Below, in pieces: positions 17,694-47,228 of a DNA stretch of 62,972 nt. The first letter of the stretch is position 1. Each line of letters begins with the position of its first letter. The notes beneath the pieces were generated by a model. The model worked only from the letters and a program-made list of their open reading frames with translations, made no database searches and was not told where the DNA came from. The DNA is from Magnetospirillum fulvum MGU-K5. Lineage in GTDB: Bacteria > Pseudomonadota > Alphaproteobacteria > Rhodospirillales > Magnetospirillaceae. The translations under genes and the position numbers were made by a program. The stretch lies in NCBI RefSeq assembly GCF_000442515.1, contig NZ_AQPH01000013.1, positions 1 to 62,972 of the forward strand, read 5' to 3'.

Positions 17694-19160
17694 TCAATAA
17701 ACGTTCTTTCCCGCGACAGCCATTATCGTTCTAAACAATATCTCGACATCGAAGAATACCGACCAGTTCTCCATGTAATAGAGGTCACACTCTACCCGTC
17801 TCAATATCTTCTCTTCGGTGTCCGTCTCGCCCCGCCAGCCCCGGACCTGGGCCCAGCCGGTAATGCCCGGCTTGACCTTGTGCCGGGCCGCGTATTCGCA
17901 CACCACTTCCTCGAACAGACGCCCAGCAGCCTTGGTGTTCGTCGCATGTGGCCGGGGACCGACCAGCGACATGTCGCCCGAGAGAACGTTAAAGAGTTGC
18001 GGCAGTTCATCGAGGCTGGTCCGCCGCAACACGGCACCGACCCGAGTGATGCGCGGATCGCGCCGGGTGGTTTGAGTGTCGCAATTAGCGTCACGGGCCT
18101 CGTGATACATCGAGCGGAATTTGTAGACCCCGATCAGAGTGTTGTTGTAGCCGTAGCGGTTCTGACGAAACAGAACAGGCCCGCGACTGTCGAGCTTGAT
18201 CGCAATCGCGCACAGCACCATCAGCGGAGACGCCAGCAACAAGGCCAGCCCGCCGAAGACGAGATCCTCGATCCGCTTCAGCAACGCCCCCCAGCCGCTG
18301 ATCGGCTTGGAATAGACGTCGAAAACGGGGACTCCGCCAAGGCGACCGAAGCCGCGATCGAGGAAGTGATGGCCGATCACGTCCGGAGCCAGCCGAATGT
18401 TGGCCGGAACTGACCGCACCCGGCTCAGGATGTCGAGCAGCCGGGTCTCGGCTCCCCATGGCAGTGCGATCAGAATCTCATCGACCCGGTTGCGACGGGA
18501 ATAGGCGACCAGATCGTCGACGCTGCCAAGTCGGCCAGTGCCAAGGGGGAGTTCAGGCTCACGCCCACTCCGGTCATCAAACACGCCGATCAGATGGACC
18601 CACGGTTCCTTACGCCGCTCCAGCGCCTTGATCAAACGGCTGCCGGGTTCGCCCGCGCCAATGATTGCCACCGTGCGGGCGATTACCCCCCGGCTCGCCC
18701 CCACCACCAGCGCCTTGTACAACGCCACCCGGACCCCGCACATCAGCAGGATGCCCCAGGCCACGGTGTTCAGTGGCGCTTCGAACGGCCACCAGAAATC
18801 CTCGGTCAGATCGGCCGCCCACAAAGCGAGCCATTCCAGCAAGGCCACCGCGCTGCTGTTGAACAGCAGGCGGCTGATCTGTGACACCGGGTTCCCGATC
18901 TGCTTATGGCTATAGCCACCCGACGCGACCATCAAATAAAGCGTACTGGCGACGAACACCGCATCGGTCAGCTTCCAGACCTTCGCGGGCATCCCCGAAT
19001 ACTCGGACGCTTCCAGGTATGACAGCCGAAAGAACACCGCCATCAGCACGATATCGGCAATGGCGGTGATCACGACGATCGAAACCCCGGCAAACGACGC
19101 CCCGCGGTAGGTTGCGATGGCGGGGATTTGCTCAGAACTCGTCCGCTCCCTCACGTTCAC
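17694..19160 (-). CDS. undecaprenyl-phosphate sugar phosphotransferase (initiating glycosyltransferase)
   Basis: This WcaJ/WbaP-type protein transfers a sugar-1-phosphate from a UDP-sugar to undecaprenyl phosphate, starting the repeat unit at the inner membrane. The 488-residue protein starts at a GTG with AGGACAG upstream. It has about four N-terminal membrane spans, a nucleotide-fold middle domain, one more hydrophobic segment ([19 protein letters not shown]) and the catalytic bacterial sugar transferase domain: [41 protein letters not shown] and [15 protein letters not shown]. It lies 17 bp after prsT. Galactose or glucose transfer is plausible given galE next door. Confidence 0.92.
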
Positions 19161-19176: not shown

Positions 19177-21582
19177 TTAGAGGGTCTGGAAGACCTGTTT
19201 GGCGGTCTCGATCCCCGGATAGGAGGTGTTCCCCTCCAAGGCCTTTTGCAGATGAGCTTTCGCCTCGGCCTTGCGGTCGGCCCCCAGCAGGATCATCCCG
19301 ATGTGATAGTGAACCTGCGGCGGCATCTGCTCGGCATTCATGATCCGATTCGCCAAAACCAGCGCCTTGCTCTGGTCCCCTTTGCGGAAGTAGACCCAAG
19401 CCAGCGTATCGAGTTGCATCGGATTGGATGCCCCCTGGAACCGCTCGGCGAGTTGGCGCGCCCGTTCCATCGCCACCGGGTCGTTGGCCTTGTAATCGGC
19501 AATCAGCTCGGCCGCATTGTTGGCGGCAAGGTCAAGCCCGGGGTTCCGCGCCAGCAGATCCTCGTAAATCGCCAGCGCTTCCTGGTGCCGCCCCTCGACG
19601 CTGTAGATATCGGCGAGCAGGATCGGCAACGGGACAGACGATGGCACCGCCGCGATCCCCCGCTTGGCGACATCAATCGCCTCCGCGACCTTTCGATCCA
19701 GCAGATAGAGGCGGGTACGGTCGAGATAGGGTTCGGCGCGGGCTGGGTTCTGGGCCAGAGCCCGATCAAGTTCGGTGGCGGCCTTGTCGCGCAAACCGCG
19801 CTGGAGATAGATTTCACCCAGAACAGTGGCGACGAACGGGCTGTCGGTGCGAAGCGTGTCGATGAAGTGCGATGCCGCCTCCAGCCGGTTCTGGCGGGAA
19901 TAGGCCCCGACCAACGCGGCCAGCGCGTGTTCGGCCAACGGTGAGTCGGGATCGGCGCTCACCACGCCGGAAAACAGACGCACCGCGTCGTCGAGCCGGT
20001 CTTCAGCGGCCAGCGCCTCGCCGCGCAGATACTGTGCGGTTAAATGCTGCCCGTCGAGTGCTTCCAGGCGGTCGATCGCCGCGATGGCACCGACGAGATC
20101 CTTCTGTGACAGCTTGACCCGGGCCACGCTTTCCCAGGCGACAGCAAAGCTCGGATGGGTCTTGGTCACCTGATTGAGGAGATCAAGCGCACGGGCGGTA
20201 TCGTTGTTGACGTTATAAAGCTGGGCAAGACGGACCCGTGGGGTCGGATCGAGCGGCAGCGAATCGACCAGATGGGCCTGGGTGTCGATTGCCAAATCGA
20301 TCCGCCCCTGCATCAGCAAAGCTTCCGACAGCAGGCTCAGCGCCTCCTTGTCACTGGCCTGCTCACGCAGGATCGCCCGCAAATCCGACACAGCACTCTG
20401 ATACTGGCCCTTGTCAAAAGCCATTCCGGCCCGCAGGAGCAAGGCCTGACGGTTGGTCGGCGCCTTTTCGAGCACGGCGGCAACCAGCCGCTCGGCCAAG
20501 GCACGGTCGCCGCGGGCAAAGCTGATCCGGGCCAGCGAGGCGCGGGCGGTCAGGCCAGGGGTCTGAAACTCGTTGCGGGCGACGATCTGCTGCAACAGAT
20601 CGATCCCTCTGTCGATTGCACCATGCTTGATATAGAGATCGGCCAGCCAGAAATATAACTCGTCCTTCTTGGGGGCCTGGGCGAGATACTGGCGCACCTC
20701 CTTCTCGGCGACATCCAGGCTGCGATTGTCGCTGAGAAAGACGACCAGCCGCTGTTTCAGCGGCCAATCACCGTCGGGATCGGTAATCCCGCTGCGGAGC
20801 GTTCCCTCTGCCGCATCGATCTGGCCCTTCTTCAAATAGAGATCGACGAGTTCAAGCCGATAGCGGACTTCTCCGGGGCGCAACTGGAACAGGGCGCGAT
20901 AGGCTTCCTCGACTTTGGCAAATTGGTCGAGCCGCAGGAACAGGGCGATTTTCAACTGTTGCAGAGAGGGTTCGCCCGGATGCTTGGCAATCCCCTCCTC
21001 CAGCACCGCTCCCGCCTTGGCCCCATCGCCCAGGGCGGTGTAAAGGCCGGTCAGAACCGAGATCGCGGTGATGTTGCCGGCATCCTTGGCCAAGGCAAGG
21101 CGGGCCTCGGCCTCGCACCCCGCGTAATCCTTATATCGAAGCAGGAGAGCGGCCCGCAACGCATGGGCTTCGACATTGTCCGGGTCCTTGGCCAGGACGT
21201 CGTTGATCCGAGTTTCTGCTTCGCCATATTGCTCGGCGGCAAGAAAGTACTGCGCCAGCTTGAGGCGAGCCGGGCCAAACGCGGCATCCTGGCTTTCGGC
21301 GGCGGAGAAAGCGGCAAAGGCATTGCGCAGATCGCCCTGGGCCTCGTCGACCAACCCCAGCCGATAGCGCACATCGGGATCGCTCGGCTTGATCCGCGCC
21401 GCGTTCTTGAACTCGATCCGCGCCTTGTCGAACTCACCACGGGCAAGAAGATCACTGCCGCGCCGCAAATATTTCGCCTCGCGATCACCGGCATCGTCAC
21501 ACGCCGCCAGAGGAACGCAGAGCAGCAAGAGGGCGGCGGCTATCTGCGTCGCTCGGTTCTTCGTCATGGTTGAGGAATCCAT
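19177..21582 (-). CDS. prsT: TPR-repeat lipoprotein, PrsT-like (PEP-CTERM system)
   Basis: The 801-residue protein has a lipoprotein signal (LLLLCVPLAAC) and then almost entirely tetratricopeptide repeats, recognisable by A-x-G and P units such as LLARGEFDKARIEFKNAARI and LRYKDYAGCEAEARLAL. The start may instead be the internal Met at 21567; neither has a strong ribosome site. TPR lipoproteins of this size in exosortase loci are called PrsT and are thought to help secretion or assembly of exopolysaccharide or sorted proteins; the exact function is not known. Family assignment rests on size, lipobox, repeats and the locus. Confidence 0.8.
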   Translation of the reverse strand: MDSSTMTKNRATQIAAALLLLCVPLAACDDAGDREAKYLRRGSDLLARGEFDKARIEFKNAARIKPSDPDVRYRLGLVDEAQGDLRNAFAAFSAAESQDAAFGPARLKLAQYFLAAEQYGEAETRINDVLAKDPDNVEAHALRAALLLRYKDYAGCEAEARLALAKDAGNITAISVLTGLYTALGDGAKAGAVLEEGIAKHPGEPSLQQLKIALFLRLDQFAKVEEAYRALFQLRPGEVRYRLELVDLYLKKGQIDAAEGTLRSGITDPDGDWPLKQRLVVFLSDNRSLDVAEKEVRQYLAQAPKKDELYFWLADLYIKHGAIDRGIDLLQQIVARNEFQTPGLTARASLARISFARGDRALAERLVAAVLEKAPTNRQALLLRAGMAFDKGQYQSAVSDLRAILREQASDKEALSLLSEALLMQGRIDLAIDTQAHLVDSLPLDPTPRVRLAQLYNVNNDTARALDLLNQVTKTHPSFAVAWESVARVKLSQKDLVGAIAAIDRLEALDGQHLTAQYLRGEALAAEDRLDDAVRLFSGVVSADPDSPLAEHALAALVGAYSRQNRLEAASHFIDTLRTDSPFVATVLGEIYLQRGLRDKAATELDRALAQNPARAEPYLDRTRLYLLDRKVAEAIDVAKRGIAAVPSSVPLPILLADIYSVEGRHQEALAIYEDLLARNPGLDLAANNAAELIADYKANDPVAMERARQLAERFQGASNPMQLDTLAWVYFRKGDQSKALVLANRIMNAEQMPPQVHYHIGMILLGADRKAEAKAHLQKALEGNTSYPGIETAKQVFQTL

Positions 21583-21635: not shown

Positions 21636-22610
21636 CTAACAGGACTCGCCGGATTGGGAAGAAGCGCTGTCACCAGACAAGACGGCCGGTCCCGAGACCG
21701 TATCGACGATGTCCTGCATCAATTGGACGGCAGACTGCTCGACGGTGACGGCGCGGCGAATCGCCTGCGAAACCTTGGAGAGCAGTTCGACATCGGTCGC
21801 AGCACTCGTCTTGCAGCGATTGGGCTGGGCCAGACGATCCGTCAGCGACAATAAAATATTGGCGAGGTCACCAAGCTGGGGAGACGCCGTGGCAGGAATC
21901 CGGGCGCGAAACCCGCTGGCGGTCTTGGCGAGAAGATCAATCTGGGACCCGAACGCATCACCGTGACCTTGGCCCCGGAAGGTGGCATGCGCCACGCCAG
22001 ACAACCGTTCCAAGGTGCGGGCATGAGCCTCGACCTGACGGTCTTCCAATTCAAAACACGCCACGTCGACCAGCCGTTGCACCGACGAATCGTCCATCCC
22101 CCGAGTGACCTTGCACAACAGGGTGTTGGGAACCTGGATCAGGCCAGAAGGATCGGCAGCATCGCGGTCGGCTGATCGTCGGCTTGGCCCGACAAAATCA
22201 TGGCTGGTGGCAAACATTTTCCGGGATCGCGTGAAGCGCTCGATACTTCCGAAGAGCCGGTCCTGCGACACCGGCTTACGCAGCAGATCGTCGATACCGG
22301 CATCAATCAGTTGTCCCACCGTGTCCCGCGTGGCATCGGCGATCGTCGCAATCACGATCACGAAGGGATTTCGCCCCTCATGATGGCGTCGGATACGGCT
22401 GGTCACGCCGAGCAAAGCATCACCGGCGGTATCAACATCGTAGAGCAACAAGTCGATCAGACTATCGTCAAGATAACGCATCATCGTCGAAACATTGTCG
22501 CAGGATCGGACGTTGCCGATCCCAAATGCCCGGAGAGCCTCTTTGAGAGAGTTGGTCTGGTACGGGTCATCGCACACCACCAACCGCACATTCTCATAGG
22601 CTTTCCCCAT
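21636..22610 (-). CDS. response regulator with an unrecognised C-terminal domain
   Basis: ATG 22610 has a strong GGAGGGAG site 6-8 nt upstream and fits the start of the receiver domain (VRLVVCDDPYQTNSLKEAL); an earlier Met at 22646 does not. The receiver occupies about residues 1-125, with LLLYDVDT as phospho-acceptor segment and LLRKPVSQ containing the conserved Lys. The remaining 200 residues show no DNA-binding or enzymatic motif I know; they look helical (LFGSIERF, LVDVACFELEDRQVEAH, LTDRLAQ). It heads the minus-strand prsT-galE operon, divergent from a PEP-CTERM gene, so it may sense or control polysaccharide output. Confidence 0.8.
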   Translation of the reverse strand: MGKAYENVRLVVCDDPYQTNSLKEALRAFGIGNVRSCDNVSTMMRYLDDSLIDLLLYDVDTAGDALLGVTSRIRRHHEGRNPFVIVIATIADATRDTVGQLIDAGIDDLLRKPVSQDRLFGSIERFTRSRKMFATSHDFVGPSRRSADRDAADPSGLIQVPNTLLCKVTRGMDDSSVQRLVDVACFELEDRQVEAHARTLERLSGVAHATFRGQGHGDAFGSQIDLLAKTASGFRARIPATASPQLGDLANILLSLTDRLAQPNRCKTSAATDVELLSKVSQAIRRAVTVEQSAVQLMQDIVDTVSGPAVLSGDSASSQSGESC

Positions 22611-22736
22611 CGGTGCTCCCTCCGCCGATAACATTCGGTCAAACACACATTCTTTTCATTGCGCGACTTAGCAAAATTCAGACCAACCCTCTCCTTCCGC
22701 GACTTTCCGCCAGCCCTGACGGACCACCCCACCCAC

Positions 22737-22755
22737 AGGTGTAAAGAACCCTGAC
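22737..22755 (+). promoter_or_regulatory. putative activator site, copy 1 of GGTGTAAA-N6-TGAC
   Basis: AGGTGTAAAGAACCCTGAC lies about 116 bp upstream of the -24 element. It is an inverted copy of the site at 22793-22811, 16 of 19 bases matching, with centres about 56 bp apart. Candidate upstream activating site for a sigma-54 activator such as PrsR. Confidence 0.6.
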
Positions 22756-22792
22756 GAAGAAGCATGTTTTCGAACGAAATCACGCGCATTTT

Positions 22793-22811
22793 GTCAGAGT
22801 TGTTTACACCT
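22793..22811 (-). promoter_or_regulatory. putative activator site, copy 2 of GGTGTAAA-N6-TGAC
   Basis: On the minus strand it reads AGGTGTAAACAACTCTGAC. Its centre is about 60 bp upstream of the -24 element of the promoter at 22862, the same spacing as the single site in front of the second PEP-CTERM gene. Confidence 0.62.
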
Positions 22812-22861
22812 CTCTCTCCTCCGGAACCGGAGAAGCGCAGGAAACCCGCATTGAGGGCGGC

Positions 22862-22877
22862 TGGCATCAAACTTGCT
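22862..22877 (+). promoter_or_regulatory. sigma-54 (-24/-12) promoter of the tandem PEP-CTERM gene
   Basis: TGGCATCAAACTTGCT fits the RpoN consensus TGGCACG-N4-TTGCW with the GG and GC pairs at exactly the required spacing. It lies about 80 bp upstream of the start codon at 22957, with two activator-like sites further upstream. Confidence 0.75.
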
Positions 22878-22956: not shown

Positions 22957-24240
22957 ATGAGAAACTCGTTTACGCGCTTGAGGCTCTCTGCCATCGCACT
23001 GGTTGCGGCGATGGCGTTTGCCTGGAGCGGGGCCGCGCAGGCGGTCACGGTCAACTTCGCCGAAAGCATTATCGGAGTAGGTGATGGCTACCAATCATCC
23101 TTCGACGGAACCCTATATAGCTCCAAGATAGGCAATTCTCCGACGAACTACGGGCTGAGCAGCAGCTCAAACACCCTTTCGGTTGGCTCGAATGTGGTGT
23201 TTACGCCCGTTGACGGAGCCTCGCCCTATAGCCTGGGGGTGGATAACGGGTTTAGCGGGGTCTACACGTTCACGCTTCCGTTTAACGCCAAAACCAGCGT
23301 CTCGATCCAATTCAATACGAACCGGCTCGACGAACTCCGAATCACCGGCATTACCCTGAAGTCGGGGACCACCGAATACGACCTGCACAACGTCGCAGGC
23401 ACGAAGGATCTTACCCTCGCCACCGCCAATTTGTTGGGCAGCGGGACGTACAGCCTGTACTACACCGTCGCTACCGGCACAGGGTTTAATAAAAGCTCGT
23501 CCTTCTCCGGTACGGTGTCGGCGGTGCCGCTGCCGGGCGCGGCCCTGCTGTTCGGCTCGTCGCTGCTTGGCCTCGGCGTCTTCGGCCGACGCCGTCAGCG
23601 GCAACGCAATCGCGAGGCCGCCCGCGTCGGTGGCCTCGGAGCCCTTGCCGTTGTCCTGGTGATGGGATTTTCGGGTACAGCGAAGGCAGCAAGCTATAGC
23701 GACGTTCTCGAACTGAACAGCGGCAATCCGCTTTCGGCCTCCACCACCGAGTTGGTGTACACCGGCACGGTCGGACCGAAATCCAGCGCGATGACAGGTC
23801 GCTATATTTCCGACGTTTTCACCGTCAATAAAAAGGGGGCGGTAACGGCGAACAAAACCGACAGCAGCAACATCACAACCTTCAATCTGAAGTTTCAGCT
23901 GTCTCAGGCATCAAATCTCGTCGTCACTCTGACCGACAACATTTCAGGAACTCTCCTGAATGGATTGAAGTATGACACGATCACCCTGAATGGGCTTACG
24001 GGGAAGATCCTTGCTCTCCCCAATCCGAACAATTCGATCGTCGTCAGCTTCTCTAATCTGCTCGCCAACACTCTTTATAATCTGGCGGTGACCGCGGGCA
24101 ACAACACCACGATCCGCACCGTGCAGGTCAGCGCGGCGGTGTCGCCGGTCCCGATTCCTGGTGCCGTTGTCTTGTTCGGCTCGGCCCTGCTTGGACTGGG
24201 CGCCTATGGACGGTTCAATCGCGCCAGAAAGGCCGATTGA
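22957..24240 (+). CDS. secreted protein with two tandem PEP-CTERM (VPLPA-type) units
   Basis: One uninterrupted 427-residue frame contains two complete exosortase substrates. Unit 1: signal peptide (to about residue 29, ending AAQA), a beta-rich domain, sorting signal VPLPGA at 190-195, membrane segment 196-210 and basic tail RRRQRQRNR. Unit 2: a second signal-like hydrophobic stretch at about 226-240 followed by AKAAS, a different beta-rich domain, and VPIPGA at 398-403 with membrane segment and basic tail. No start codon placed before the second signal stretch would separate them. GGAGG precedes the ATG. The product should be processed by the exosortase encoded at 43998; how the internal signal is handled is unclear. 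Expression probably depends on sigma-54. Confidence 0.85.
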   Translation: MRNSFTRLRLSAIALVAAMAFAWSGAAQAVTVNFAESIIGVGDGYQSSFDGTLYSSKIGNSPTNYGLSSSSNTLSVGSNVVFTPVDGASPYSLGVDNGFSGVYTFTLPFNAKTSVSIQFNTNRLDELRITGITLKSGTTEYDLHNVAGTKDLTLATANLLGSGTYSLYYTVATGTGFNKSSSFSGTVSAVPLPGAALLFGSSLLGLGVFGRRRQRQRNREAARVGGLGALAVVLVMGFSGTAKAASYSDVLELNSGNPLSASTTELVYTGTVGPKSSAMTGRYISDVFTVNKKGAVTANKTDSSNITTFNLKFQLSQASNLVVTLTDNISGTLLNGLKYDTITLNGLTGKILALPNPNNSIVVSFSNLLANTLYNLAVTAGNNTTIRTVQVSAAVSPVPIPGAVVLFGSALLGLGAYGRFNRARKAD

Positions 24241-24265: not shown

Positions 24266-24312
24266 CGAAAGGCGTCTGGCGCAGACAGGCGCCTTTCGCT
24301 TTTGTATTTCTT
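24266..24312 (+). terminator. rho-independent terminator after the PEP-CTERM gene
   Basis: CGAAAGGCG at 24266-24274 pairs perfectly with CGCCTTTCG at 24290-24298, with an inner TCTG/CAGA pair, followed by CTTTTGTATTTCTT. It lies 26 bp beyond the stop codon. Confidence 0.8.
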
Positions 24313-24499: not shown

Positions 24500-25135
24500 A
24501 TGATCGTGACGGGAAAACAACATATTCGGCTCAAAAACAGCACGGTGCTGATCGCTGATCCGATCCCCTTTTTCCGGATGGGCCTGCTGGCGATGCTCCG
24601 CCGCTTCGCCCCTACACCGCACGTGCGCGAGGCAGATTCCATGAGCGCCACGAGGCAAGCGCTGCGGCAGGATTCGTTCGATCTCGTCCTGCTTGATCTC
24701 AGTTTCGCACAGACCGAATCAGCCCGGTTGCGCGACGACCTTGATGCCGCCGGACACCCCCCGCTCATCACATTCTGCGACGCCCCCAGCCCGGCACTGA
24801 AGAGTGTTGCGCAGTCCGTGGGCGCGGCGGCGATCTTCTCTCGCACCGAACAGACGCAGACCGTCCGGATGGCCGTGGAAAACGTGCTTGGCCCGTCCAA
24901 CACGGCTCCCTCCCTTGCGATGCGCGACCAGAGCTTGGACAGCGACGCCACGACCGGCTTGACCGAGCGCCAGCGCGAAGTCCACCAACTGATGCTGATG
25001 GGGCTTCCCAACAAAGAAATCGCCCGACGCCTTGGCCTATCCCCCAATACGGTCAAGGTACACATGACAATCATATTCAAAAAATTGGGAATCGCATCTC
25101 GTTACCAGGCTCTTGCGCCCCACAGCTTGCTGTGA
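24500..25135 (+). CDS. NarL/LuxR-type response regulator with atypical receiver
   Basis: The 211-residue protein has an N-terminal receiver-like domain (VLIADPIPFFRMGLL; LVLLDLSF with the Asp) and a C-terminal LuxR helix-turn-helix (LTERQREVHQLMLMGLPNKEIARRLGLSPNTVKVHMTIIFKKLGI). The receiver lacks the usual lysine: where relatives have a GYLLKD-like sequence it reads AIFSRT, so phosphorylation control may be altered. GGGGGAA precedes the start. It lies between a PEP-CTERM gene and prsK/prsR, so control of polysaccharide or sorted-protein genes is plausible. Confidence 0.87.
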   Translation: MIVTGKQHIRLKNSTVLIADPIPFFRMGLLAMLRRFAPTPHVREADSMSATRQALRQDSFDLVLLDLSFAQTESARLRDDLDAAGHPPLITFCDAPSPALKSVAQSVGAAAIFSRTEQTQTVRMAVENVLGPSNTAPSLAMRDQSLDSDATTGLTERQREVHQLMLMGLPNKEIARRLGLSPNTVKVHMTIIFKKLGIASRYQALAPHSLL

Positions 25136-25700: not shown

Positions 25701-27826
25701 ATGGACCTGAGCATTACGATCGGACTTCCGGTCGATAAGATCGAGCTGTTTGGCAACGCCCTCTGCGCGGCACTCTATTTATGCATTGTCGCCGCCGCCG
25801 CGCTCAGCGTCTCGATGGGACGCGGTCGCTTTTTTCTCGCCTTCGGCTGCGCCTGCACAGCGATCTCGGCCTGTGGCGTGACCGCACGTCTCGATTTTGC
25901 CCTCGCCCTCCCGCTCGAAACCGCACGAACCTGGGCGTTTCTCCTGTTCTGCGCCTGCCAGCTCCCGATCGACCGATTGGTGCCGTCGCGCCGTCTCTGG
26001 CGCATTCCCTCGGGACTGAGAATCCCGCTTGCCATCGTTCCAGGCGTGATGGCCGGGGGGCTGATGCTGACCGCAGGCACAACGACTGCTTTGATTCTGT
26101 TTAATCTTTGGCAGATCACCGTTGATATCCTGATCCTGCTGATGCTGGAAAATCTGCTCCGGAATATCGAGCAGACACCGACACGCGGTCTGCGTCTGGT
26201 GGTTCTGGGGATAGGCGGGCTGACGATTTTTGACCTGATGATCTGCGTTTCAGGTCTCACCACCGGGGGCATTCCGTCCCTGTTCGTTGTCGCCAGAAGC
26301 TACATCCTGTTCGCGCTCGGTTTGCCGCTCGCTTTTGCCACCTTGTTGGTGCGCGGATGGGGCAGCAACTTTCAGATGTCCCGCTACGCCGTATTCCATT
26401 CCACCGCCCTGGTTGGCGGCGGCTTCTATCTGGTCAGCACCTCGGTGGCTGGTGAGGTGCTGCGCAATCGGACCGGCGATTGGGGACTGACTCTCGAGAT
26501 CACCTTCATCACCACCGCAACAATCTTGCTGATGATTCTGATTCAGTCGGCATCGTTTCGCGCCCGGATGATGGTGTTCATTTCCAAGCATTTTTTCCGG
26601 CTGAAATACGATTACCGTGAAGTCTGGCTGGCCTTCATCCGCAAGATGGCCGGGCCGCACCAGAACCAAACGCTACACGAACGGACGTTGCGGGCGGTTG
26701 CGGAATCGGTCGATTGCCGGTCCGGAGTGTTGTGGACGTTCCAGGATGCGATCGATGCGTTTACGCCGGTCGTGCATTGGAACATTGATGGGGACCTTCC
26801 TGTCATTCCCTCCGACGACCCGTTGATGAACTTCATGGTCCGCACCGGATGGATCATCGACATCAACGAATGCCTGACCTATCCGGAAATTTACGACGGA
26901 CTATCCCTTCCCCTCTGGTTTTCCAGCCAGCGCGACCAGTGGATTATCGTCCCGCTGATCCATCATGAAGTACTGGAAGGCATGATCGTCGCAGGCCACC
27001 CGACCACCGCGCCATCAGCGCTGGGGTGGGAGGATTTCGATCTGCTGAAGACCGTCGGCGCTCAAGCCGCCGGTTATCTGGCCGAAGAGCGCGCCTCCCG
27101 CGCCCTCAATGATGCGCGTCGCCTTGCCGAGTTCAATCGCCGGTTCGCTTTTGTCGTTCATGATATTAAAAACGTCGTGAGCCAGATGTCGTTGATGTTG
27201 GAAAACGCCCACACCTTCGGCCATGACCCGGAGTTTCAGCGGGATATGCTGCTGACCACGGCCAGTTCGGTCGATCGGCTGCGCGGAATGCTGGCTCAAC
27301 TTGGGCAGGAAGGGGCACGCCGAGCCGAACTCATATTACAGCCGACCTTCCTCGGCTCGTTCGCCGCCCAGGTGTTTGAGCGCTGGCGCAAATCCTTCCC
27401 CCGCCTCCAGTTGATTGATGCTTCGGAGCCGGTGCTGGTGGATGCTTGCCGCGACAAGCTGGCCTCGGTGATGGATCACCTCGTTCAAAACGCAATTGAT
27501 GCCGTCGGGCCGGACGGCTCGGTATCGATCGTCATCCGTCCCGGCCACAGCGATGGAATCATCGAAATCATCGATGACGGCCCGGGGATGAGCCAGGACT
27601 TTGTGCGCGACCACCTGTTCCGCCCATTCGAAACCAGAAAACCAAACGGCTCTGGCATTGGCGCGTTTCAGGCATTGCGGATGATGCAAGACATGGGGGG
27701 CGCCTTGACGTCGAAAGCCATCCCGGAGCCGGGACAACCATGAGACTTCGCCTGAAGTGCTGCGAGGTTCCCGCTTCGCCCAATCAAGAGGACAGGAATG
27801 GCCGAAGACTCTCTGCGCAGGCCTAG
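25701..27826 (+). CDS. prsK: PEP-CTERM system sensor histidine kinase PrsK (last residues frameshifted as written)
   Basis: PrsK is the membrane kinase that partners PrsR. The N-terminal half has about eight hydrophobic spans, then a GAF-like domain (ESVDCRSGVLWTF), the phospho-acceptor His at about residue 487 (FAFVVHDIKNVVSQMS), and the ATPase domain with N box (MDHLVQNAIDAVG), DDGPGM, FRPFET and GSGIGAFQ. As written the frame ends at 27743 after an odd ALTSKAIPEPGQP tail. One more G in the 6-G run at 27695-27700 restores GGRLDVESHPGAGTTMRLRL and a stop at 27824-27826, overlapping prsR and giving about 708 residues, the family norm. As the loss is after the last ATP-binding motif, partial function is possible. 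Confidence 0.9.
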
Positions 27827-29198
27827 GATTCTCATCGTCGAGGACGATCCCGGATTGCGCACCCAGTTGCGCTGGACACTGTCGGACTACGACCTGTTGC
27901 CGGCCGAGGATCGCGAGTCGGCGATGACCTTGTTCCGACGCGAGGAACCGCCGCTGGTGATTCTTGACCTCGGTCTGCCGCCTGATCGTGACAACGCCAG
28001 CGAAGGCCTAGCCACCTTGCGCGAAATCCGCGCCCTGCGCCCAATCACCAAGGTGATTGTCGCCACCGGGAACCAGGAGCGCGAGAACGCTCTCGAGGCG
28101 ATCAGTATTGGTGCCTATGATTTCTACTCAAAGCCGGTCGATCCCGACGTGATCAAGGTGATTATCGAACGGGCCTGGAACAGCTATCAGCTTGAGGAGG
28201 AGATCACCCACCTGCGCGACGGGTTGCAGGGGGGCAAGGATTTCGACGGTCTGGTCACCGCCTCGCCGGAGATGTTGAAGGTCGTCAATCTGGCACAGCG
28301 TGTCGCCCGCTCCGACGTCGGCGTCCTGATTACTGGCGAAAGCGGGACCGGCAAGGACATCCTGGCCCGCGCGATTCACGCCTGGAGCCCGCGTAAAGAC
28401 AACCCGTTCGTCGCGCTTAATTGTGCCGCGATCCCCGAGACTTTGCTGGAAAGCGAACTGTTCGGCCATGAGAAAGGGGCGTTCACCGGCGCGGTTGCCC
28501 GGGTGCATGGCAAGATCGAACTGGCCGATGGCGGCACCTTGTTCCTGGATGAAATCGGCGACATGCCTTTGCCGCTTCAGGCCAAGTTGCTGCGCTTCCT
28601 CCAAGAAAAAGTAGTCGAACGGATCGGTGGGCGCAAATTGCTTTCCGTCAACGTCCGAATTCTCGCCGCGACCAACAAGGACCTCGTCGCAATGATGCGC
28701 GAGGGCGGCTTCCGCGAGGATCTCTATTACCGGCTGAACGAGATGGGGCTCATCGTTCCGCCATTGCGGGAGCGGCCGGGCGATGCGGTGCTGATCGCCA
28801 TTCATCTGCTCAAGAAACTAAGTTCCGCTTTCGAGTCACCGCCCAAGGGCTTCACCCGTGACGCCCTTGCCCGCATCGCCTCTTATTCCTGGCCAGGCAA
28901 CGTCCGCGAACTGGAGAACCGGATCAAGCGCGGCATCGTGCTCGCCGATCAAGGCTACATCACTCCCGAAGACCTCGACTTGCCGGAAGAGGGCGAGACG
29001 CGGGATGTGCTTCCCACCCTGCGTCAAGTGCGCGAGGAGGCAGAGCGCCGCATGTTGAGCCGAACCCTGGCGTTGACCGACAACAACATCCAAGAGGCAT
29101 CGAAAATCCTCGGTGTCAGTCGGCCAACTCTCTACGCCCTGATGAAGGCACTCCGGATCGGCCGATACCACGCCCCCAAGGCGGAGGTCCCCGATTGA
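27798..29198 (+). CDS. prsR: PEP-CTERM-box sigma-54 response regulator PrsR
   Basis: PrsR is the sigma-54 activator paired with PrsK. The 466-residue protein has a receiver domain ([27 protein letters not shown]), an AAA+ domain with Walker A GESGTGKD near residue 180, the sigma-54 contact loop GAFTGA near 227, Walker [14 protein letters not shown], and a Fis-type helix-turn-helix at the C terminus ([20 protein letters not shown]). It probably activates the sigma-54 promoters at 22862 and 47143-47158. Confidence 0.95.
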
Positions 29199-43597: not shown

Positions 43598-43990
43598 ATG
43601 ATTTTCAGACGAGTTCTACTCACAGGGACTGCGATCACTGCTTTGTTATTCGTCTTTTTTGCCGCGGCGAGCAGCCATGCGGAGACGGACTATTTGTGCC
43701 TGAAGCGCTGCGTAGAGGCGGGAACAGCATCTTCTCCGTGTATGGCCCAATGCACCTATCAGCGGGCACCGGCGCCGACACAGGCCCCCTTGTCTTCCCG
43801 TCAATTTTCGGCACCCAGGCCAACACCTTCGAACGTCATCCTCCCAAGCAAGGACAGCCCCGAGAACGGAACCGCCAACAGCCCCACGGCCAGACTGGGC
43901 AGGGCAAGCGGAACGACCGTCCAGTGCATCAGTTCCTGTGTCCAGAGCGGTTATCAGCGCGATCTCTGTCGTCTGCGTTGCCCGGAATGA
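43598..43990 (+). CDS. secreted twin-CX3C protein of unknown function
   Basis: The 130-residue protein has a signal peptide (to about residue 28, ASSHA) and two identical cysteine frames: C34-x3-C38-x9-C48-x3-C52 and C110-x3-C114-x9-C124-x3-C128, separated by a Pro/Ser/Thr-rich linker. Each could form a helical hairpin with two disulphides in the periplasm or outside the cell. It lies 7 bp upstream of the exosortase gene, so it may be a cofactor or substrate partner of sorting. I know no named family for it. Confidence 0.75.
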   Translation: MIFRRVLLTGTAITALLFVFFAAASSHAETDYLCLKRCVEAGTASSPCMAQCTYQRAPAPTQAPLSSRQFSAPRPTPSNVILPSKDSPENGTANSPTARLGRASGTTVQCISSCVQSGYQRDLCRLRCPE

Positions 43991-43997
43991 AACGCTG

Positions 43998-45551
43998 ATG
44001 GCCCGCGACCATCAACCGCCCTCTCCGACTGCCTGGCCCGGATTCGCGGCGGTTTCCGTCGCCACAATCCTTACCGTCGTCGCCTTCCTGCGCCCTGCCA
44101 GAGATTTGATCCAATCCTGGAGCGCCGCGGAATATAGCTACGCCTATATCGTCCCGGCCATCGCCGCACTGATGCTCTGGCATATCCTCGCCGAGCATCG
44201 TCCCCGCCCAATCCCGGCCTGGACCGGCAGCGCGGTCGTTTTGGGCGGCATTATCCTGCTCGTCGTCGGCGAATTGTCGACGCTACGGCAGATTGCCCAT
44301 TACGGGCTTCTCGCGACCCTCACCGGGATCGGTCTCACCTTCCTCGGGCATCGTGCGATGCGCCTTGCCCTTCCGGCCTTCGTCTACCTGCTGTTCGCCA
44401 TCCCCCTGCCGCCACAACTGCACAACAGCATGTCGCTTGACATGCAATTGTGGTCTTCGACCCTGGGCGTATGGCTTCTCGACGGGCTTGGCCGATCGGT
44501 CTTTCAGGACGGCAACGTTATCGACCTTGGCGGCTTTAAGCTCCAGGTCGTCGACGCTTGCAGCGGGTTGCGTTACCTGTTTCCCCTGCTCAGTTTCTCC
44601 TATCTGGTCGCCTACACCTTATCCGACCGAATGTGGAAGAAGGCGGTGATCCTTCTGTCTGCGCTCCCGATTACGATCGGCATGAATGCCCTGCGCATCG
44701 CCATCATCGGACTCACCGTCGATCTGTGGGGGATCGAGATGGCCCAAGGGGTGCTGCACGATTTCGAGGGATGGACGATCTTTGCCGGGTGTACGGCGAT
44801 TCTTCTCGCCGAAGCCTGGGTGTTGTCGCGGATCGCCGGGCGCGGGACGTTCCGCCTCGACCTGTTTACCCGGCCCGAGGGGAAGCTCCTCGATGGCCCG
44901 GTGCGGCTAAACGGACCCGGATATGTCGCCCTCTGCGTCTTGAGCGCGGCGGCGGCATTGTCCGTCTCCGGCCTGCTTGTTGACCGCAAGAGCCCAGAGC
45001 TTCCTGTCGTATGGCTGGGACAGCTTCCGGTAAACATCGGGGAATGGAGAGGACGCACCGACAGCCTTGACCCGGCCACGTTGAAATCTCTCTCTCTAGA
45101 CGATTATTGGCTCGCCGATTACTCAGCCTCAGACTCCGAGCCACCGATCAGTCTCTACATTGCGTATTATCGCCAGCAGACGATGGGATCGGCGATCCAT
45201 TCCCCTTCGACCTGTATTCCCGGTGGCGGGTGGCGTGTCGAATCGACCGAACGCAGGGCAGTCCATGTCGGAGCTCAGACCATTCCGATCGCCCGGTTGG
45301 TGATCCGGCGCGGTGAGGCCCGTCAGTTGGTCTATTACTGGTTCGATGAGCGGGGAAAAATCGTGACATCTCAGTTAGGGGCGAAGTGGTCTCTTCTGGT
45401 CGATTCCATCCTTCTCAATCGGACGGACGGCTCTCTGATCCGTATCCTCACCGCGATTGGCCCTCAAGAAACCATGGATCAGGCTGAAGCCCGCCTCGCG
45501 GCCTTCCTATCGACAGCATACCCACCGATCGACATGGCTCTTCACCCGTGA
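43998..45551 (+). CDS. exosortase fused to an EpsI domain
   Basis: Exosortases are multi-span inner-membrane transpeptidase-like enzymes that cleave PEP-CTERM signals. ATG 43998 gives 517 residues: about eight membrane spans with the catalytic Cys188 (DACSGLRYLFPLL), Arg233 (MNALRIAIIG) and His254 (GVLHDFEGW), then a periplasmic EpsI domain from about residue 330 with HSPSTCIPGGGW at 401-412. The fused EpsI and the VPLPA-like substrates point to an XrtD-like type, but XrtA cannot be excluded. Start and stop overlap or abut the neighbours (stop overlaps the next GTG by four bases), indicating one operon. Confidence 0.93.
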   Translation: MARDHQPPSPTAWPGFAAVSVATILTVVAFLRPARDLIQSWSAAEYSYAYIVPAIAALMLWHILAEHRPRPIPAWTGSAVVLGGIILLVVGELSTLRQIAHYGLLATLTGIGLTFLGHRAMRLALPAFVYLLFAIPLPPQLHNSMSLDMQLWSSTLGVWLLDGLGRSVFQDGNVIDLGGFKLQVVDACSGLRYLFPLLSFSYLVAYTLSDRMWKKAVILLSALPITIGMNALRIAIIGLTVDLWGIEMAQGVLHDFEGWTIFAGCTAILLAEAWVLSRIAGRGTFRLDLFTRPEGKLLDGPVRLNGPGYVALCVLSAAAALSVSGLLVDRKSPELPVVWLGQLPVNIGEWRGRTDSLDPATLKSLSLDDYWLADYSASDSEPPISLYIAYYRQQTMGSAIHSPSTCIPGGGWRVESTERRAVHVGAQTIPIARLVIRRGEARQLVYYWFDERGKIVTSQLGAKWSLLVDSILLNRTDGSLIRILTAIGPQETMDQAEARLAAFLSTAYPPIDMALHP

Positions 45552-46382: not shown

Positions 46383-47102
46383 TCAGCCTTTGCGCGCCCG
46401 CATCCGGCCCAGCGCGCCCAGCCCAAACAGCGCCGCTCCCATCAGCGGCAAGGTCGCGGGCAGCGGCACGGCCGAAACCCGGGCGATTTCAAACCCACCG
46501 CTTCCGGCAGCGGTCGAGAACACCGCCTGCTTGATCACGACATCGGACAGAATGCCGATCAGGGGACCAGCCGAGGAGGTGTTGACGAGGTTGGCGTTGG
46601 AAAGGGTGTGCTTCCCGTTGCCATCACTCCAGGACAGCGAGGACCCGCCGCTCGCCGTGACCGTGCCGAGCAGGCTTTGATTGTTACCGTACAAGGTGAC
46701 GGTGTTCGTCGCGGAGGGCGAGCCCCAGACGAACTGAATCCCCTTGCTGTTCAGGCTGAAGGTGATCGAAGACGCTTTCCCAGCCTTATCCGTACCGCCC
46801 GACCCGCCGATGCTGAGCCAGGTTCCGCCCGACCCATAGGGGTTCCACCCGCTTGAGCTCTGCGCGTTGGCATTGGTGTAGGTGGGAACGAGGATCTTGC
46901 CGTTGTTGGTGGTCCCGCCCTGCACGGTCTGGGTGTTGTCGGCTCCCACCACCGTCACCCCGTTGAACAGGATGTTGGACGCCGCCGAGACGGTGCCGTA
47001 ATCGGTGACGGACAGGATCGCCGCATCAGCCGCAGAGAACGCGGCCGATGCCAGCCCGCAGAGAGCAGCGGCGGCAATCGCGGTACGTTGGGGAATACGC
47101 AA
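46383..47102 (-). CDS. VPLPA-CTERM secreted protein
   Basis: I place the start at a TTG (47102) because GGGAG lies 8 nt upstream and it gives a clean signal peptide (MRIPQRTAIAAAALCGLASA); the open frame extends to 47186 with an unlikely basic extension that would cover the promoter. The 239-residue protein has a serine/glycine-rich beta domain (GSGGTWLSIGGSGG) and ends VPLPATLPLMGAALFGLGAL followed by GRMRARKG: motif, membrane segment and basic tail of an exosortase substrate. A sigma-54-like promoter and an activator-like site lie upstream. Confidence 0.85.
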   Translation of the reverse strand: MRIPQRTAIAAAALCGLASAAFSAADAAILSVTDYGTVSAASNILFNGVTVVGADNTQTVQGGTTNNGKILVPTYTNANAQSSSGWNPYGSGGTWLSIGGSGGTDKAGKASSITFSLNSKGIQFVWGSPSATNTVTLYGNNQSLLGTVTASGGSSLSWSDGNGKHTLSNANLVNTSSAGPLIGILSDVVIKQAVFSTAAGSGGFEIARVSAVPLPATLPLMGAALFGLGALGRMRARKG

Positions 47103-47142: not shown

Positions 47143-47158
47143 CGCAATCGGCATGCCG
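47143..47158 (-). promoter_or_regulatory. sigma-54-type promoter of the VPLPA-CTERM gene
   Basis: On the minus strand CGGCATGCCGATTGCG has the RpoN layout (GG, 10 bases, GC) with one mismatch at the first base and one at the last of the consensus TGGCACG-N4-TTGCW. It lies about 41 bp upstream of the TTG start. Confidence 0.62.
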
Positions 47159-47208: not shown

Positions 47209-47228
47209 CGGTGTAAAGCTTCGTGACA
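47209..47228 (+). promoter_or_regulatory. putative activator site, copy 3 of GGTGTAAA-N6-TGAC
   Basis: CGGTGTAAAGCTTCGTGACA has the same GGTGTAAA-N6-TGAC pattern as the two sites at 22737 and 22793. Its centre is about 61 bp from the -24 GG of the promoter at 47143-47158, matching the spacing at the other PEP-CTERM gene. Confidence 0.62.

Follow-up and report, generated by a model that had tools for sequence, protein, structure and literature searches.

The region between positions 22671 and 22877 is quite probably a divergent control region, in which two promoters of the PEP-CTERM-box class stand back to back and are putatively driven by the response regulator PrsR and sigma-54. It lies in the window, the whole 62,972-nucleotide stretch of DNA that was analysed, which belongs to the 3.77-Mb draft genome (178 contigs) of Magnetospirillum fulvum MGU-K5. 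The core of the box has been known since 2006; what the sequences newly point to is the divergent reading, a spacing of box and promoter in whole helical turns, and positioned IHF-like sites.

Architecture of the proposed control region

The preliminary description had reported a TGGC-N7-TTGC element at 22862, preceded by two inverted copies of GGTGTAAA-N6-TGAC, and had taken both copies as sites of a single sigma-54 promoter. The element is present at 22862-22876 on the plus strand, and the inverted copies were confirmed: their arms, of 22 nt each with 31 nt between them, are complementary at 19 of 22 positions (86%), and the exact motif is found three times in the genome, each time in the window and beside a PEP-CTERM gene. 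The arm centres are separated by 53 bp, which corrects the earlier figure of about 56 bp. What the sequence supports is that a PEP-CTERM gene here has a sigma-54 promoter with PrsR-type activator sites; the assignment of the inverted copies as a pair to one promoter is not supported in that form, since site 1 faces away from it and lies 54 bp from a minus-strand sigma-54 promoter of its own. This divergent promoter and a third site near 47210 had been overlooked. The elements are listed below, the gap being the number of bases between TTTACA and the T of TGGC.

22671-22685 (-): divergent sigma-54 promoter, TGGT-N7-TTGC, TGGTCTGAATTTTGCT, gap 54 from site 1
22737-22758 (+): inverted arm of site 1, AGGTGTAAAGAACCCTGACGAA
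22740-22756 (-): candidate PrsR-box (motif 1) of site 1; the minus strand reads GTCAGGGTTCTTTACA
22790-22811: inverted arm of site 2, inverted partner of site 1
22792-22808 (+): candidate PrsR-box (motif 1) of site 2, TGTCAGAGTTGTTTACA, for the promoter of the tandem PEP-CTERM gene
22842-22854 (+): weak IHF-like stretch, AAACCCGCATTGA, four mismatches, at the position that IHF-like sites occupy in relatives
22862-22877 (+): sigma-54 -24/-12 promoter of the tandem PEP-CTERM gene, TGGCATCAAACTTGCT, TGGC-N7-TTGC, gap 53 from site 2
47144-47158 (-): sigma-54 promoter of the PEP-CTERM gene at 47 kb, CGGC-N7-TTGC, gap 53
47212-47228 (-): candidate PrsR-box, the third site of the window, its exact motif copy at 47210-47227, facing the second PEP-CTERM gene

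All three boxes of the window carry TTTACA at the end that faces the promoter, their gaps are 53, 54 and 53, and the promoters TGGCATCAAACTTGCT, TGGTCTGAATTTTGCT and CGGCATGCCGATTGCG all have the -24 GG and -12 GC of sigma-54 motif 2. Sites 1 and 2 apparently face outward, each heading its own sigma-54 promoter. The minus-strand promoter, at gap 54, scores 17.5 of 18.5; TGGTCTGAATTTTGCT is followed by GGAGGGAG, which by eye resembles a ribosome-binding site, and then by the ATG of the receiver gene at 22610. On the other side the ATG of the PEP-CTERM gene lies about 80 bp beyond TGGCATCAAACTTGCT.

Both boxes and both promoters are conserved in the alignment to M. fulvum DSM 13234 (NZ_FNWO01000004.1), which served as the comparison genome, and the spacers drift. 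The gaps of the divergent region are 53 and 54 there, and the orthologue of the 47-kb gene has one of 52.

Relation to known PEP-CTERM promoters

GGTGTAAA-N6-TGAC is the reverse complement of motif 1 as given in the text of Haft et al. (2006; PMC1569441), who described PEP-CTERM motif 1, the sigma-54 motif 2 and the predicted activator PrsR; the preliminary description had mentioned RpoN sites upstream of PEP-CTERM genes elsewhere, and the consensus fits the text of 2006. The likeness covers the 17-nt motif with TTTACA toward the promoter, the -24 GG/-12 GC elements, the presence of PrsR and PrsK genes nearby and the spacer, for which the available text gives a mean of 62.8, an SD of 10.6 and a range of 32-92, so that the window gaps of 53, 54 and 53 fall within it. 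A predicted PEP-CTERM gene downstream and a PrsT-like gene nearby also resemble that system, both scoring below their family cut-offs. In contrast to that system, two copies stand back to back here, one of them apparently serving a receiver gene that is followed by prsT and an EPS gene. The spacer is described in the available text by its mean and SD, with mention of neither turn-wise spacing nor IHF (PMC1569441).

Another PEP-CTERM gene, pepA of Aquincola tertiaricarbonis RN12, needs RpoN1 and has a mapped -24/-12 start, which is RpoN1-dependent and has an upstream enhancer motif. It differs from the present case in being experimentally tested and a single gene, with no divergent partner described in the available text (PMC9850573). 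Among the top-ranked open-access papers listed, none reports divergent promoters, helical spacing or a role of IHF at PEP-CTERM genes, which is weak evidence of absence. Two Geobacter papers touch on both IHF and this gene class: PMC7962754 gives an exosortase substrate, GSU1943, as up-regulated in ihf mutants, and PMC12325454 names IHF, in its available text, only in a reference.

Genes around the promoters and the choice of activator

17694-19160 (-): EPS polyprenyl glycosylphosphotransferase, TIGR03023 and TIGR03025 above cut-off
19177-21582 (-): prsT-like TPR protein, TIGR02917, 250.3 bits, below the cut-off of 312.2
21636-22610 (-): receiver-domain gene (PF00072), first behind the divergent promoter
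22957-24240 (+): tandem PEP-CTERM gene, 427 aa, a single frame with two sorting tails (VPLPG/VPIPG)
24266-24298 (+): terminator-like hairpin 3' of the PEP-CTERM gene, 13 pairs, T-rich tail
24500-25135: response regulator of the LuxR type, encoded in the interval from the PEP-CTERM gene to prsK
25701-27743 (+): PrsK histidine kinase, TIGR02916, 499.9 bits, cut-off 300
27798-29198 (+): PrsR response regulator with receiver, sigma-54 AAA+ and Fis-type HTH domains, TIGR02915, 634.6 bits, cut-off 502.6
43938-45551 (+): exosortase XrtD, TIGR04152, 497.3 bits, cut-off 400
46383-47102 (-): second PEP-CTERM gene, probable TTG start

The tandem gene (22957-24240) consists by eye of two modules in a row, each with a hydrophobic signal-like start, a domain and a VPLPG/VPIPG tail. 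Its sorting tail VPLPGAALLFGSSLLGLGVFGRRR, recognised by eye, reaches 23.2 bits with TIGR03370 (cut-off 25.35). The predicted product looks like a polyprotein for the exosortase. An assembly artefact was considered and rejected, as M. fulvum DSM 13234 also has the gene in one frame; the protein there is the same fusion, at 69% identity, and among 60 genomes the tandem protein is found in these two. For the hairpin downstream it should be noted that a terminator consensus scan of the region returned 15 candidates against a shuffle mean of 7.2.

On the divergent side, the receiver protein gave no Pfam match at E 0.1 for its C-terminal 200 residues, and no PEP-CTERM tail was seen in the gene. Behind it, on the same strand and with short gaps, follow the genes for the prsT-like protein, the EPS glycosylphosphotransferase and a galE-like protein (galE by eye).

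A second set of such genes is present on contig C33 (13000-31000; locus L076), with an XrtD exosortase, a further PrsR (PrsR2, scoring 617 bits) and a 426-aa PrsK-like kinase whose match is limited to the second half of the family. The box at this locus has a gap of 63 and points towards a small ORF for a membrane protein and the gene of the exosortase.

One RpoN is encoded in the genome. PrsR had been named as the sigma-54 activator nearby, and its family assignment holds, with a score over the cut-off; among the 60 relatives searched, this genome included, PrsR is above cut-off in 10. It is possible, if unlikely, that another sigma-54 activator, or the PrsR of C33, binds the sites instead of the adjacent PrsR. 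The family model scored 23 matches in this genome, two of them above cut-off, and the two paralogues are 67% identical with nearly identical HTH segments and could share sites, the C33 box being similar to those of the window. Exact boxes, however, are restricted to the window, around the local prsRK genes, and prsR and the boxes are kept together in M. fulvum DSM 13234; both argue for the adjacent PrsR.

Divergent pairs in other genomes

One scan of the genome-contig collection, with a pattern of two boxes in inverted orientation and a sigma-54 core behind them, gave five loci. Three of them (Alteromonas sp. IB21, a SAR86 bin and M. fulvum) have a good promoter on both sides. PEP-CTERM-like genes flank both sides in the SAR86 bin; in Alteromonas sp. 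IB21 the left gene has a PEP-CTERM-like tail and the right gene is cut by the locus end. The good promoter is one-sided in the other two (Neptunicella marina and a gammaproteobacterial bin). Loci L108 and L110 carry an inverted upstream copy with no good promoter on that side (best 13 and 14 of 18.5). Going by these predicted elements, back-to-back promoters recur, yet an inverted box need not mean a second promoter. Since the second side lacks a good promoter in two of the five inverted pairs, site 1 may contribute to both promoters.

An alternative, which we consider rather improbable, is that the inverted copies cooperate as an activator pair serving no promoter but that of the PEP-CTERM gene, the minus-strand sigma-54 match being incidental. 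Loci L108 and L110 would fit such an arrangement, as would the finding of a second box (at most one mismatch) within 120 bp upstream at 4 of 46 other promoters, against 0.5 expected from shuffles, and the statement in the available text of PMC1569441 that motif 1 is sometimes repeated before one gene, Rru_A3095 of Rhodospirillum rubrum being named. It is at odds with the high score of the minus-strand promoter and the retention of its gap of 54 in M. fulvum DSM 13234, with its position directly before a gene preceded by the ribosome-binding-like GGAGGGAG (by eye), and with the promoters on both sides in two other lineages, all of which favour the divergent reading.

Second boxes in direct orientation were also observed, with at most one mismatch, 109-116 bp upstream of the first at loci L129, L130 and L136, a distance near ten to eleven helical turns.

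Genome-wide searches

Base composition predicts 0.003 exact matches to the 12-base pattern for the window and 0.19 for the whole genome, compared with the three found. With up to two mismatches the genome contains 163 matches and the control 90; with up to three, the window shows no enrichment (29 vs a shuffle mean of 24.1). Because the three-mismatch counts are near chance, the signal is located in the exact matches and their promoter context; the loose counts are uninformative, and two-block patterns were therefore used instead.

Motif 1 followed after 40-68 nt by GG-N9-TGC gave three matches in the genome and none in the reversed control, and a fixed-gap pattern, with 53 bp between motif 1 and TGGC-N7-TTGC and up to three mismatches allowed, gave the same numbers. 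The search patterns of the analysis required exact GTCA and TTTACA, so that weaker boxes are missed. The expectation that a genome scan would lead to PEP-CTERM genes was upheld, as the fixed-gap pattern falls on exactly three of them, the two of the window and the gene of a choice-of-anchor A protein on contig C91. A search for VPLPA-CTERM (TIGR03370) found four tails in the same three genes, all below cut-off, with a model that also gave sub-threshold matches in 7 of 14 control genomes. The classic PEP-CTERM model (TIGR02595) gave five matches in the genome, all short of its cut-off; the PEP-CTERM gene at 46.4 kb is among them. All three PEP-CTERM genes found in the genome carry the predicted promoter type, with a gap of 53 in each.

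A chance inverted repeat without function is hardly credible: the near-chance number of three-mismatch matches in the window would allow it, but three exact matches at PEP-CTERM genes vs 0.19 expected in the genome, the conservation of the boxes in M. fulvum DSM 13234 and the two-block and fixed-gap searches all contradict it.

The C91 gene (L066, 6586-7911, minus strand), whose choice-of-anchor A product ends in a VPLPA tail and which has the same promoter type, adjoins large ORFs of 997 and 1133 aa that by eye resemble a synthase cluster.

Helical-turn spacing of box and promoter

The spacing was analysed in a single family of the same phylum, the one to which G333 belongs, by searching 147 of its genomes for gaps of 36-66 and 64-94. 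The shorter range gave 253 matches in 99 genomes (150 listed) and the longer one 66 listed matches, with four in the reversed control in each case; seven places are common to both lists, leaving 209 distinct places among the matches listed. Of these listed matches, 205 lie in five registers at about 41, 51, 62, 73 and 84 bp (3 at gaps 40-42, 43 at 49-53, 111 at 59-65, 33 at 71-75 and 15 at 81-87), and four lie between registers, at 68-70. Among the matches listed there are none at gaps 36-39, 43-48, 54-58, 66-67, 76-80 or 88-94. A period of about 11 bp fits best, and 10.5 is nearly as good. Several registers are used within single genomes, for example 42, 60, 60, 61, 63 and 75 in G561. The gap of 54 at the divergent promoter is one base outside the registers of this reference family.

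An independent draw of 370 genomes from the class of that family, with gaps of 46-76, gave 68 matches and none in the reversed control. Sixty of them are from outside the first family, at 51-53 (6), 61-66 (32) and 71-76 (22), and 58 of the 60 fall in the registers defined on the first family, where 55% are expected; the binomial p of 2.8e-13 is too small, as related promoters are non-independent. A draw of 398 genomes from the phylum gave at least 57 matches in 31 genomes and five control matches. Inspection of 29 of the 57 listed placed eight inside long reading frames, with scattered gaps (45-56); among the other 21, a PEP-CTERM-like tail was seen by eye downstream of 16, two were cut by the locus end and three had none.

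As far as predicted sites can tell, box and promoter are separated by whole helical turns throughout the PEP-CTERM-box class. Dependence on helical phase is described for activation loops in the available text of PMC7408454, where it is said to be less important at glnALG.

An IHF-like third element

A further motif was first spotted by eye in the listed spacers and then tested. IHF sites follow the consensus WATCAANNNNTTR. A spacer match with no more than one mismatch occurs in 32 of 47 promoters (60 minus 13 in open frames; L104 and L105 of the 47 are in ORFs); 200 mononucleotide shuffles gave 7.5 on average and 14 at most. These sites are concentrated at two places, 26 of the 32 being found either 6-8 bp before TGGC (7) or, in the other orientation, 17-20 bp before it (19). 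In 100 further promoters, hand-picked by register and genome from the matches listed in the first family, 60 have a site with at most one mismatch (mean 19.2, maximum 30 in 200 dinucleotide shuffles). The places set beforehand on the first 47 hold 33 of these 60, against a shuffle mean of 1.3 and a maximum of 5; the first orientation peaks here at 5-6 bp before TGGC rather than at 6-8.

Published accounts give the IHF consensus as WATCARXXXXTTR and state that IHF commonly binds between the activator site and the sigma-54 promoter (PMC7962754, available text). The order of activator site, IHF-like site and promoter is the same in the present class, which differs from IHF-assisted promoters in general in being known from sequence, in its two preferred orientations and places, and in boxes offset by whole turns. 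The positioned sites suggest a short, rigid loop bent by IHF.

In the present genus the signal is weak: in the M. fulvum MGU-K5 genome the best IHF match has four mismatches at the tandem gene, three at the 47-kb gene, one at the C91 gene and five at the divergent promoter. At the tandem, 47-kb and C91 genes it shares one orientation and lies 5-7 bp before TGGC; the spacers of the divergent and C33 promoters contain no convincing IHF-like site. In Geobacter, the PEP-motif exosortase substrate GSU1943 is up about 2.9-fold in both ihf mutants (Table 2 of PMC7962754, available text), a rise that would count against IHF as a helper of the activator.

Proposed mechanism and significance

From the boxes, the promoters, the gene order, the conservation in M. 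fulvum, the quantised spacing and the IHF-like sites in other genomes, we infer PrsR binding, the use of sigma-54 here, the operon structure and bending by IHF. The Fis-type HTH of phosphorylated PrsR probably recognises each TGTCA-N6-TTTACA box, and the AAA+ domain of the protein would open the sigma-54 polymerase waiting about 53 bp downstream. The plus-strand promoter would drive the tandem PEP-CTERM surface protein, and the minus-strand promoter the receiver-domain gene together with prsT and, probably, the gene of the EPS glycosylphosphotransferase, so that the matrix protein and the genes for the matrix polysaccharide would be activated jointly.

We lean by a little towards a wider reading, that PEP-CTERM promoters are a rigid assembly of PrsR box, IHF bend and sigma-54 in which the box moves by whole turns, and that in this lineage the back-to-back pair couples the matrix protein to an operon starting the polysaccharide. 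It is made slightly less likely by the rise of GSU1943 in the ihf mutants. On this rigid-assembly reading the loose published spacer of 62.8 ± 10.6 becomes a set of discrete registers, with IHF as a likely third element, and natural enhancer promoters with hundreds of spacing variants would provide a rare test bed.

Zoogloea lacking PrsK or PrsR fails to flocculate, as retold in the available text of PMC9012009, and EPS synthesis is unaffected in the prsK and prsR mutants; because of this, control of EPS by PrsR here would be a lineage difference. The divergent layout predicts that, unlike in the Zoogloea report, PrsR also controls prsT and the EPS transferase in Magnetospirillum relatives.

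Occurrence in related genomes

In the 60 relatives the strict two-block pattern gave 17 matches in 11 genomes, with six in the reversed controls. Six of the 17 fall in this genome (G000) and M. fulvum DSM 13234 (G006); the remaining 11 are mostly counted without case-by-case judgement. Stretches of up to 20 kb around PrsR in eight further genomes contain a likely promoter in G014, G029, G041 and G059, and no likely promoter within these stretches in G004, G032, G044 and G047. By eye, a PEP-CTERM-like gene lies downstream in G014, G029 and G059, not in G041. The likely PrsR-box promoter of G041 (L073, near 13604, minus strand) has a box with two mismatches and precedes a gene without a PEP-CTERM tail; its spacer holds TATCAATGTGTTG, by eye a full IHF consensus.
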